Shown one piece after another: positions 11,849 through 16,900 of a stretch of DNA of 40,125 bases. The position numbers and the translations under genes were made by a program. The notes under the pieces were generated by a model, which was not told where the DNA came from, did no database searches, and saw only the letters and a list, made by a program, of their open reading frames with translations. Source of the DNA: Spirochaetaceae bacterium (GTDB lineage Bacteria > Spirochaetota > Spirochaetia > B11-G9). Position 1 is the first letter of the stretch, and each line of letters starts with the position of its first letter. The DNA is taken from positions 1-40,125 of the forward strand of contig WGCU01000040.1 in NCBI GenBank assembly GCA_015493635.1. The letters run 5' to 3'.

Positions 11849-12226
11849 CTACCCCAGATAGCCCTTTTCCACAACGAGAGCCATAACGTAAGTTAAAATA
11901 TCCTCTTCAATATCCTCAGCATATGCGTTTACCAGATCTCTTATTACCGTCCACTCCCCTTCATCAAGAGGGTCCTTTTTTGTATCATACGCTTCGTTAA
12001 AAAGCTCAACCACATCCACTAGGTGATATGCAAGATTTCTGAGATTCTCAACCGTTTTCCCTGTCCGGGTCAGATAGTATCCATACAGATCTTTTCCCAT
12101 CCCCTTTGGAAGTGTTGTCAATGACCGTACAAAAAGATCCTCAATCTTTTTTCTTTTTTCCTCTATGGAGGATTCCCCTTTCAACGCCTTTTCAATCCCC
12201 AGGTATAGTATGCGTGCTGAGCTCAT
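11849..12226 (-). CDS. Conserved-looking hypothetical protein, all-alpha
   Basis: I do not recognise this 125-residue protein. It is rich in charged residues and predicted helices (KGESSIEEKRKKIEDLFVRSLTTL, VENLRNLAYHLVDVVELFNEAYD, VIRDLVNAYAEDIEEDILTYVMALVVE) and has no signal peptide or membrane segment, so it is probably cytoplasmic. An AGGAGGAATTA stretch just before the ATG at 12226 is a strong ribosome-binding site. It lies 12 bp downstream of the OmpA-family gene and is probably co-transcribed with it. Confidence 0.7.
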   Translation of the reverse strand: MSSARILYLGIEKALKGESSIEEKRKKIEDLFVRSLTTLPKGMGKDLYGYYLTRTGKTVENLRNLAYHLVDVVELFNEAYDTKKDPLDEGEWTVIRDLVNAYAEDIEEDILTYVMALVVEKGYLG

Positions 12227-13476: not shown

Positions 13477-13505
13477 TTGACAAATACCATAACTACTTAT
13501 ATCTT
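13477..13505 (+). promoter_or_regulatory. Candidate promoter for the pseudo-helicase gene
   Basis: TTGACA (13477-13482), a 17-bp spacer and TATCTT (13500-13505) lie about 35 bp before the GTG start. The -35 is a perfect consensus match. Confidence 0.45.
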
Positions 13506-13539
13506 TACCTGTAAGTAACAAAAACAGCAGGATAGTATC

Positions 13540-14634
13540 GTGTTTTATAATGTCAGTCATCAGGTTTCTCTTAAAAAAACAGTTGAACTTCTGGTAAAAT
13601 CCGGTTGTTCCTCAGTTACTCCCTTTCAATATACAGCATTTTCAGCTTTTTTCTCACGTAGAGACTTTGTTGCCAAATATTCCGCGGATGACGGCAAAAA
13701 TTTTGCATTTCTGGCTCCTCTCCTCGTTACTGACCGGGAAAGCAGTACCTCCCCGGAAACACTCATCCTGACAGACAGCGTAGCAGAGCTTGAACGGATA
13801 AGAACTGACTTTCAAACACTTAAAAAATATGCTGCCGGTGTAAAAGATCCGGTTTTCCTCCGGGACGAAGAACCAATAAAACCTGAAATTAAGCACTTGG
13901 CAAAAAAACCTGCTATAATTGTCGGCACAACCAATCGTATAATTGATCATCTACGGCGAAACAACATAGAATTACAGAATCTTAAATATCTGGTTCTTGA
14001 TATAACAGAAAACCAGAATAGGAATTTTTTTGATAAGGATGTCCTTTTTATTGCAACCAAAATATACCATCATGTGCGTACTGCTGTATTTCTCCCTCAT
14101 GACCACATTCTGGATTCTCTTGAAAACATTGTAAAAAGACCTATAGTATCATCACAGGAGCGTAAAATGACAAATCTGAATGAAGAGAGTATTAAAAGAA
14201 AAATCGATGATTTTATTTCTATCATCAAGGAGAGCGAAGACCCTATACTGCTTAAAAGTTATCAAAAACTCATCAAGAAGAATGTCCCTTTCCACTTAAG
14301 AGGATACTTTTCCGCATTTCTTCTTAAAAGTATTCTGGGAGGCAGCACCCCTTCCCGTTCCTCTGCTCCCGGCACCATTGCACCGGGCACAATGCAGACC
14401 CTTTTTATAAATATAGGGAAAACCCGCCGGGTATATCCTAACGATCTTTCCCGCTTTTTCCAAAAATCCCTGGAGCTTACACCGGATAAGATAGGACCAA
14501 TCAAAGTCCTCGCAAATTATTCTTTTATAGATATCAATAAAGATGCGGCAGAAGATGCAGTGGCCAAGCTGGACGGAACGACATACCGGGGAAAAAAGAT
14601 TACCGTCAACTTTGCCAGAAAGAAGGGAGAATAA
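13540..14634 (+). CDS. DEAD-box-derived pseudo-helicase with DbpA-type RNA-binding tail
   Basis: This 364-residue protein keeps the layout of a DEAD-box RNA helicase but has lost its catalytic parts. Residues 27-30 (TPFQ) match the Q motif, 47-54 (YSADDGKN) replace the TGxGKT P-loop, 129-140 (GTTNRIIDHLRR) match the TPGR region, and 151-158 (LVLDITEN) replace VLDEAD. Motif III (SAT) is gone. The second RecA domain is absent: after residue 205 the chain goes directly to a helical segment like the DeaD/CsdA linker (210-265), and residues 285-361 form a DbpA-type RNA-binding domain (LFINIGKTRRVYPNDLSRFF...IKVLANYSFIDI). I infer an RNA-binding adaptor without ATPase activity. Start GTG 13540, with AGGAT upstream. 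Confidence 0.75.
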   Translation: MFYNVSHQVSLKKTVELLVKSGCSSVTPFQYTAFSAFFSRRDFVAKYSADDGKNFAFLAPLLVTDRESSTSPETLILTDSVAELERIRTDFQTLKKYAAGVKDPVFLRDEEPIKPEIKHLAKKPAIIVGTTNRIIDHLRRNNIELQNLKYLVLDITENQNRNFFDKDVLFIATKIYHHVRTAVFLPHDHILDSLENIVKRPIVSSQERKMTNLNEESIKRKIDDFISIIKESEDPILLKSYQKLIKKNVPFHLRGYFSAFLLKSILGGSTPSRSSAPGTIAPGTMQTLFINIGKTRRVYPNDLSRFFQKSLELTPDKIGPIKVLANYSFIDINKDAAEDAVAKLDGTTYRGKKITVNFARKKGE

Positions 14635-14642
14635 GGAAGCCA

Positions 14643-15830
14643 TTACCTGAGTAAATAGGTTATTCCTACAAAGAAAAGCACTCCATTAACAAGAAAGTCC
14701 GCAAGAATGGCTGTGCTGGATAAAATTTCAAGTTTTAACGCCTTTTTTTCACTCTTTTCCGCCAGCGTAAGAGGATTCCCCGGAATAAGTATATTTTCTG
14801 CCATGGGGTCAGGGCTGCGGCGGATTACTTCTCCATCCGAATCTTTAACCTGAAACAGATAGAAATCATCTTCTAAAAAAGATGTTTTACGTACGGTAAA
14901 ATCGGTGCTGTACCTCTCCATTTCTCCTGCCCCGCATTTTTTCATTTCATACTGTGCCTCTGACAGCGATAGAGAGACCCTGCTGACAGATTCATAAAGC
15001 GATTCTTCGGCGAAAAAGCTCAAGGGGAGTTTAACAAGATCACGTTGAGCTCTCAACATTCGTGCTTTCTTCCATAAGTACCGGTATACATAGTAAAAAC
15101 CCAGCCCCGGCGGAGAAAAAAGCAGCAGAGGAACAAGACTCAGGAGCAGAGCGATTCCTGCAGGGAACTGCATATATGATTTTTGGAGGAGAATATAAAA
15201 ATAGATAAAGAGAGAAAAAGAACCAACGGTCAGAGATCCCGGAGTTGCCGGGTTCCAGTACTCATTCCGCTGTCTGCCCGTCCAGATAGCCTGGCTGAAG
15301 AAGGCTTCATCACTACAGTCGTAGATAACGACAAACAGTTTAGCATCAGGAGTTTCTACAAAGCATGTTTTCCCGTTCTTTCTGATTATACTTCCAAAAA
15401 CAAACATCCGTGTCCCTTCAGAGAGGGAAAAAATCCGGTCCCACTTTATTTTGCGCGGGGTTTCATCGGGATATCCCGCTTCTCCAATAGGAGAAGAGAG
15501 GTGAGGTGCCGACGGAAGAATATAAAGAGAAACACGGGACATATCAACACTGACAGAGAGATTATTACCGGACAGCCATAGCTCAGATTCTCCCTGAAGC
15601 GCCTGCAGAGACCCGAAAAATCGGTATGTTTCCCCCGGGATAGGTGCTTCGGTATGCAGACGGGCGTAATTCAAAAGCGGGCTGGAAACAGAAGAGATCA
15701 TTCTTTTCCTGAAATTTCTCCATTGGTGACGTACAGCAAAGGCTCCAATTCCGGGAACAAGGAAATAGAAAACCACCGCAATAGCACTGATAAAAAAGAG
15801 ATGTTTATAAACTAAAACTTGTAAAATCAT
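14643..15830 (-). CDS. Membrane protein of unknown function
   Basis: A 395-residue protein I do not recognise. It has an N-terminal membrane helix (about 9-31), a globular segment (about 40-195, containing TYRFFGSLQALQGESELWLSG and RMFVFGSIIRKNGKTCFVETPDAKLFVVIYD), two central helices (about 203-223 and 226-250), a second globular segment and a C-terminal helix (about 370-392). It converges on the pseudo-helicase gene with an 8-bp gap and is divergent from the hydrolase gene 28 bp away. Frame integrity and a short AAGG upstream of the start support a gene. Confidence 0.65.
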   Translation of the reverse strand: MILQVLVYKHLFFISAIAVVFYFLVPGIGAFAVRHQWRNFRKRMISSVSSPLLNYARLHTEAPIPGETYRFFGSLQALQGESELWLSGNNLSVSVDMSRVSLYILPSAPHLSSPIGEAGYPDETPRKIKWDRIFSLSEGTRMFVFGSIIRKNGKTCFVETPDAKLFVVIYDCSDEAFFSQAIWTGRQRNEYWNPATPGSLTVGSFSLFIYFYILLQKSYMQFPAGIALLLSLVPLLLFSPPGLGFYYVYRYLWKKARMLRAQRDLVKLPLSFFAEESLYESVSRVSLSLSEAQYEMKKCGAGEMERYSTDFTVRKTSFLEDDFYLFQVKDSDGEVIRRSPDPMAENILIPGNPLTLAEKSEKKALKLEILSSTAILADFLVNGVLFFVGITYLLR

Positions 15831-15857: not shown

Positions 15858-16526
15858 ATGGTAGAAAGAATTGTTATAGAACCATTTAATGAAAACGCCT
15901 ACGTTTTCTCTGAATGGAAGAAAGAGTGTATCCTTATTGATCCCGGAGGGGAACCTGATAAAATAATTTCCCACATGGTTGGAAAGAATCTTAAACCCCG
16001 GGGAATTGTGTGTACCCACGGTCACCTTGATCATATCGGAGGGATTCTCCGGATAAAAGATTTTTATCTGGACAAAGGGATAATACTGAAAGTAGCAGTA
16101 CATACAGAGGACAGACCGTTCTTTGGCCCTGAAGCCAAAGAAATGCACAGACAAAGCATGAAAGGGATCCCGGAGTCTCTCCTGGACGAACTGAACATAC
16201 CCCTTCATTCAATTCCTGATGCTGATATTCTTCTTAAAGAGGGAGATTTTCTTTTTGACTCACAGCTGGTAGTTATCCATACGCCGGGACATACACCGGG
16301 GAGTATTTCCCTGTACTGTGAATCCCAGAACTTCCTTTTTTCAGGAGACACACTTTTTTTTGAAAATGTCGGGAGAACTGATTTGCCGGGAGGGAACAGG
16401 GAATCGCTCCTTGAAAGTATAAAAGAAAAACTCTTTACCCTTCCCGATGAAACAAGAGTTATGCCGGGGCACGGCCCGCTTACAACTATAGAACGGGAAA
16501 AAAAGAATAATCCTTTTGTAAGTTAG
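15858..16526 (+). CDS. Metallo-beta-lactamase-fold hydrolase (glyoxalase II-like)
   Basis: A 222-residue cytoplasmic hydrolase of the MBL superfamily, binding two metal ions. The metal-ligand motif THGHLDHIGG, the second ligand segment IHTPGHTPGSISLYC, the aspartate ligand in FSGDTLF, and the final histidine in MPGHGP are all visible, with the LFFENVGRTDLPGGN loop typical of the YcbL/glyoxalase-II-like group. It probably acts on a thioester such as S-lactoylglutathione or a related thiol adduct, but the substrate is not shown. No Shine-Dalgarno sequence is seen before the ATG, although a TTGTAA-N17-TACACT promoter could place the transcript start within ten bases of it. The stop overlaps the convergent next gene by 4 bp. 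Confidence 0.88.
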   Translation: MVERIVIEPFNENAYVFSEWKKECILIDPGGEPDKIISHMVGKNLKPRGIVCTHGHLDHIGGILRIKDFYLDKGIILKVAVHTEDRPFFGPEAKEMHRQSMKGIPESLLDELNIPLHSIPDADILLKEGDFLFDSQLVVIHTPGHTPGSISLYCESQNFLFSGDTLFFENVGRTDLPGGNRESLLESIKEKLFTLPDETRVMPGHGPLTTIEREKKNNPFVS

Positions 16527-16900
16527 ACAAGACCGTTAACGAGGAGTCCTTTAAGACTCATAGCCGGCGTATAGGGTTTACGGGAACCAAGAAGCGTTTT
16601 AAGCTGGTCAGAATAACGGGCAACAAGCGCATCAGCTTTTTCCGGCGGAAGGCTGGAAAGGACGGGTTTTCCGGAAAGCGGTAATTTTCCTTCTCCTGAA
16701 AGAATATCAATAAGGGTATCAAGAGCCCGCAGACGGGTAATTGAAAACCCTTCGGAAGTGTTGGTGAAGGGAAGCGGCATAAGAGTGATATGTTTTAATC
16801 CCGTGTATTGGGCAGCAGAAGCAGGGACAGCCATATTTATACGTCCTGATCCGCTGCTTGCCCGGACAATACTGTTAAGTGATATTCCTGCTGTTTCCAT
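16523..16900 (-). CDS. Hypothetical protein
   Basis: I do not recognise this 125-residue protein. It has no membrane segment. A Ser/Gly-rich beginning (LNSIVRASSGSGRINMAVPASAAQYTGLKHI) precedes a helix (TRLRALDTLIDILSG) and a segment with KPVLSSLPPEKADALVARYSDQLKTLLGS. It has a strong ribosome-binding site (GGAGAAGGAAG just before the ATG) and lies 42 bp downstream of the DksA-like gene, probably in the same transcript. Confidence 0.6.
   Translation of the reverse strand: METAGISLNSIVRASSGSGRINMAVPASAAQYTGLKHITLMPLPFTNTSEGFSITRLRALDTLIDILSGEGKLPLSGKPVLSSLPPEKADALVARYSDQLKTLLGSRKPYTPAMSLKGLLVNGLV

Follow-up and report, generated by a model that had tools for sequence, protein, structure and literature searches.

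What does a DEAD-box helicase become once its motor is lost, and which of its parts remain in use? The question is raised by a gene in a stretch of 40,125 nucleotides (the window) from a 3.27-Mb, 98% complete genome of spirochaete type. The initial annotation described the product as a dead DEAD-box helicase turned into an RNA-binding protein, with altered P-loop, DEAD and SAT motifs, the second RecA domain (RecA2) missing, and a helical linker and a DbpA-type RNA-binding domain (RBD) retained. This description is borne out, RNA binding itself being predicted from sequence. The frame runs without interruption from GTG (13540) to TAA (14634) on the forward strand, encodes 364 amino acids and is preceded by a Shine-Dalgarno-like AGGA (13529-13532); the gene stands alone on its strand, with its flanking genes on the opposite one. 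Pfam assigns residues 27-169 to the DEAD family (44.7 bits) and residues 287-356 to the DbpA RBD (PF03880, 66.5 bits against a curated cut-off of 25.6). Helicase_C is absent from the protein in the same search, and all Helicase_C matches of the genome are on other contigs. With the intact DeaD of the same genome as reference, motifs I, II and III are all degenerate (Table 1), and RecA2 with motifs IV-VI, degenerate in full-length relatives, is missing here altogether; of the hallmarks of a DEAD-box helicase, only the RecA1 fold is present. In the predicted structure (mean pLDDT 82.8), this fold is followed by the linker as three helices (215-265) and by a domain resembling an RRM, and RecA1 superposes on those of CshA and DeaD with a TM-score of 0.83-0.85 and an rmsd of 2.2-2.5 Å. 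The protein is basic (pI 9.6), with an RBD net charge of about +5.8.

Table 1. Features of the pseudo-DEAD-box gene and its product in the window.
Feature	Position	Strand	Evidence
Promoter-like TTGACA-17-TATCTT	13477..13505	+	10/12 consensus positions, 35 bases before start codon; consensus match only
Pseudo-DEAD-box protein, 364 aa (RecA1 - helical linker - DbpA RBD)	13540..14634	+	ORF, Pfam, motif comparison, model
Pseudo-RecA1 domain, residues 1-205	13540..14154	+	Pfam DEAD 44.7 bits; TM 0.83-0.85 to CshA/DeaD RecA1; dN/dS 0.06-0.24 in related pairs
Degenerate motif I (Walker A, P-loop), YSADDGKN for AQTGTGKT, residues 47-54	13678..13701	+	Comparison with intact DeaD; loss family-wide
Retained motif Ib block TTNRIIDHLRR, residues 130-140	13927..13959	+	T, R, D, R, R 83-100% in 82 RecA1-bearing members
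Degenerate motif II, DITE for DEAD, residues 154-157	13999..14010	+	Comparison with intact DeaD; family alignment
Degenerate motif III, LPH for SAT, residues 185-187	14092..14100	+	Comparison with intact DeaD; family alignment
Short low-confidence joint at position of missing RecA2, ~residues 206-212	14155..14175	+	pLDDT <50 at 207-212; ~150 residues here in full-length relatives
Helical linker, residues 213-268, at position of DeaD/Hera dimerisation domain	14176..14343	+	Three helices, pLDDT ~70-91; invariant R254 and others
DbpA-type RNA-binding domain, residues 285-361	14392..14622	+	PF03880 66.5 bits; matches YxiN RBD 2g0c/3moj

Homologues with the same loss exist, and the window protein exemplifies one of several states within a family that, in the searches made, is confined to Spirochaetia. 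After removal of duplicates, truncated ends and true helicases, 107 curated members fall into three architectures: RecA1 plus RecA2 (34), RecA1 only, the window type (48), and linker plus RBD only (25). Conservation counts given below use a 36/46/25 split, as two members that are full-length by size (L131 and L082) were later reclassified as RecA1-only. Full-length members give weak Helicase_C matches in Pfam, and a predicted two-RecA model matches DbpA (Foldseek E ~3e-30). The best 80 of 274 relatives from an alignment query of genomes all came from spirochaetes; direct single-sequence scans of viral and genome contigs returned no match. A family match was found in 54 of the 59 genomes searched, some of these matches being true helicases. 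The 20 genomes listed without a match in the phylum search all belong to one group (f20; ~0.9-1.8 Mb; G026, G048 and others) that is Borrelia-like by inference, and some other spirochaete families also had no member in that search; these absences are soft, because many of the genomes are metagenome assemblies.

Across Spirochaetia, the gene order is OmpA-like protein, pseudohelicase, 395-aa protein, metallo-hydrolase, Smr and Bat. Since these neighbours recur around all three architectures, the members are orthologues. The most constant neighbour is the 395-aa protein, a predicted membrane protein (14643-15830, minus strand in the window) with no Pfam family above cut-off. Two small conserved neighbours in the window (11849-12226 and 16523-16900, both minus strand) also have no Pfam match.

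The ATPase motifs are lost in every member. An intact DEAD box is seen in none of the 82 RecA1-bearing proteins, full-length ones included, which indicates that catalytic death came first and domain loss later. The third residue of motif II is A in 0/36 full-length and 3/46 RecA1-only members; in motif I of the RecA1-only members, K is found in 37% and T in 26%. Motifs V and VI of RecA2 are near chance in full-length members; of motif VI, the arginines checked are canonical in 0-11%. The subsequent losses were followed on a tree of the neighbouring genes, which is independent of the pseudohelicase itself. The three states require at least 16 changes on this tree; if only losses are allowed, the best rooting gives 14 losses of RecA2 and 9 of RecA1, exact counts that are soft because the tree was made by a quick method and its branches are long. 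With weak forks collapsed and lost branches merged, the lower bounds are at least 7 losses of RecA2 and at least 6 of RecA1. These counts assume that all lost domains are ancestral, an assumption supported by the homology to DbpA that persists along the whole length.

The RecA1 domain that remains retains its fold and is under purifying selection. Among 17 related pairs, dN/dS is ~0.06-0.24 in RecA1 and mostly <0.1 in the RBD; several dS values are near saturation, and the closer pairs (dS 0.1-0.3) agree. RecA1 is thus in use and not decaying. Conservation concentrates in the motif Ib patch (T..R.IDHIRR), of which T, R, D, R and R are kept at 83-100% in the RecA1-bearing members, and in an F..D following motif II (92-100%). 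Motif Ib contacts RNA in DEAD-box proteins; its conservation here could instead reflect a structural role or a protein interface. Motor death before domain loss, at one locus and with parallel losses of RecA2 and RecA1, amounts to a natural experiment that separates RNA-binding from motor functions.

The end point of this reduction is seen in Treponema, where the whole RecA part is absent. The linker-plus-RBD member of a 1.14-Mb genome (L180; G110:C1:1124747-1125430, minus strand; 25.2 kDa) scores 149 bits against the family profile, compared with at most 85 for proteins outside the family. It adjoins pcrA and lies near L13 and S9, genes that are found ~9-13 kb from the pseudohelicase in the window. 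Position and a mass of ~25 kDa, with no direct accession match, suggest that it corresponds to T. pallidum TP1029, annotated as ‘DbpA RNA binding domain protein’. By transcript level TP1029 ranks in the top 50 genes of T. pallidum, where it is listed under rRNA processing (PMC8525777); its 25-kDa product has been detected by mass spectrometry and recorded as uncharacterised (PMC5015957). By this correspondence TP1029 would share with the window protein the family profile and the nearby pcrA, L13 and S9, and differ from it in consisting of linker and RBD only; a concrete hypothesis is thereby gained for a highly transcribed protein.

Which RNA, then, may these proteins bind? Hairpin 92 of 23S rRNA is the known ligand of the DbpA and YxiN RBDs. 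Its binding by the DbpA RRM recruits DbpA to nascent ribosomes (PMC7973409). The family RBD matches that of YxiN (2g0c/3moj), and the main-chain guanine pocket I-G-x-I common to the YxiN and Hera RBDs (PMC3695512) is kept, with G in 90/107 members. Lys 427 of YxiN, which reads the hairpin-92 uridine, has a Lys counterpart in the window protein and in only 12 of the 107 members overall, so that hairpin 92 may not be the target of the family; the RBD of Hera, which is similar in structure, does not recognise the loop of the hairpin (PMC3695512). The retention of an RNA-facing patch, a basic linker and the RBD without an ATP site points to ATP-independent RNA binding, and these features argue strongly for RNA binding as such. 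The case for a ribosomal role is weaker, and the lack of any ribosome-assembly gene directly adjoining the pseudohelicase counts against it.

On balance, we lean towards an ATP-independent RNA-binding pseudohelicase linked to rRNA or the ribosome. It could have arisen in the following manner: A DbpA/DeaD-type helicase would have been duplicated in early Spirochaetia, and one copy would have ceased to bind and hydrolyse ATP but retained the parts that contact RNA, namely the RecA1 face bearing motif Ib, the basic helical linker and the DbpA-type RBD. The dead copy would then have been trimmed repeatedly, RecA2 first, giving the window state, and RecA1 next. In the surviving protein, the RBD presumably docks on structured rRNA, RecA1 may provide a second contact, to RNA or to a partner, and the linker may dimerise as in Hera. 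The role of the pseudohelicase, during assembly of the large subunit or on the ribosome itself, would be that of a passive chaperone or placeholder. A fuller proposition has in our estimate about an even chance of being correct: the dead motor would serve a ribosome-linked function as an RNA-binding scaffold, and many Spirochaetia lineages would be dismantling it in parallel, down to a linker-plus-RBD protein abundant in Treponema.

Among the alternatives, a post-transcriptional regulator fares best, although it is unlikely. The RBD and pseudo-RecA1 would bind mRNAs or small RNAs in place of rRNA and control translation or stability, as might be expected from the change at the residue reading the hairpin-92 uridine and from the versatility of RRM-type domains (PMC3695512). 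The absence of the family from the Borrelia-like genomes and other spirochaete families likewise argues that ribosomes do not need it universally. The ribosome-linked reading is favoured instead by the high transcript level of TP1029 and by an RBD that descends directly from those of DbpA/DeaD, for which 23S rRNA is the best-known ligand.

The proposal of the initial annotation that the protein guides an active DEAD-box helicase to its RNA is somewhat less probable still. The full-length DeaD that this would call for is present (contig C8 of the genome, 553 aa, all motifs and an RBD of its own), along with other intact helicases; a second DbpA-domain protein, an intact RBD-bearing DeaD, accompanies the pseudohelicase in 34 of 53 genomes, this one included, and helicase-cofactor pairs are known (PMC9539457). 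A DeaD that carries its own RBD needs no guide, however, and in the other 19 genomes, among them the well-assembled G014, G039 and G057, the pseudohelicase is the sole DbpA-domain protein. Such a DeaD is therefore not an obligate partner, and guidance of a DeaD sharing the same RNA is not supported as a general rule; a helicase without an RBD could take its place. RecA2 loss appeared commoner beside a second DbpA-domain protein (24/30 versus 10/23; Fisher p 0.009, kinship ignored), but this association did not survive phylogenetic pairing (5 independent pairs, p ~0.5). Three close relatives contain a third DbpA-domain frame (G002:C203, G004:C195 and G006:C299; 461, 286 and 163 aa, respectively); the 461-aa frame is an intact helicase, and the two shorter ones could be fragments or products of further reduction.

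A competitor that occupies the DbpA/DeaD site of pre-50S particles and delays assembly, also raised initially, is improbable: in E. coli, a DbpA mutant devoid of helicase activity has a dominant-negative effect and prevents the assembly of 50S subunits, to judge by the title of Sharpe Elles 2009 as cited in PMC7973409, but in the 19 genomes mentioned there is no DbpA-domain helicase to compete with. Finally, a pseudogene or assembly artefact, which the missing domain and altered motifs might suggest, is ruled out by the intact frame, by ~47 other members of the same architecture in independent assemblies, most of them at the same locus, and by a RecA1 dN/dS well below 1.

Kinases provide familiar examples of pseudoenzymes, but few pseudohelicases have been validated; Utp25 was described in 2022 as the first with full validation (PMC9539457), and no bacterial counterpart was found in the literature searched, the coverage of which is incomplete. 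If the term is taken as for Utp25 (Def), to mean that the fold of a helicase is kept while its motifs no longer function, the window protein and its RecA1-bearing relatives are pseudohelicases. A pseudohelicase is also expected to be needed by the cell with its motifs dispensable; the observation bearing on this in the family is purifying selection. This eukaryotic component of the SSU processome shares with them the dead DEAD-box motifs and, putatively, the link to ribosome assembly (PMC9539457), and weak CMS1 and Utp25_C matches occur in the family in Pfam; in contrast to it, Utp25 keeps both RecA domains, has no DbpA RBD and has not been described to undergo serial domain loss. The resemblance is best regarded as analogous and does not imply common descent. 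Hera of Thermus thermophilus likewise carries a dimerisation domain and an RBD, its main RNA-binding part, behind the helicase core (PMC3695512), but it has both RecA domains and hydrolyses ATP. The closest relatives are DbpA, YxiN and DeaD (CsdA), with the same order RecA1-(RecA2)-linker-DbpA RBD, a superposable RecA1 and the PF03880 domain; unlike these, no member of the family has ATPase motifs, RecA2 is gone in the window protein and most members, and both RecA domains are gone in Treponema. What the comparison adds to the initial annotation is the Spirochaetia-wide extent of the family, the death of the motor ahead of any truncation, the many losses of RecA2 and the lack of the whole RecA part in Treponema. 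If the proposed reading is true, the family offers a deletion series made by nature, from which the parts of a DEAD-box protein that can function in the absence of ATP may be read.

Stand-alone linker-plus-RBD proteins of ~165 aa also occur in other classes of the phylum (L175-L179 and L185-L187). They were rejected as members, with 68-85 bits against at least 149 and no neighbours in common with the window locus, and possibly represent a second, independent reduction of a DeaD.
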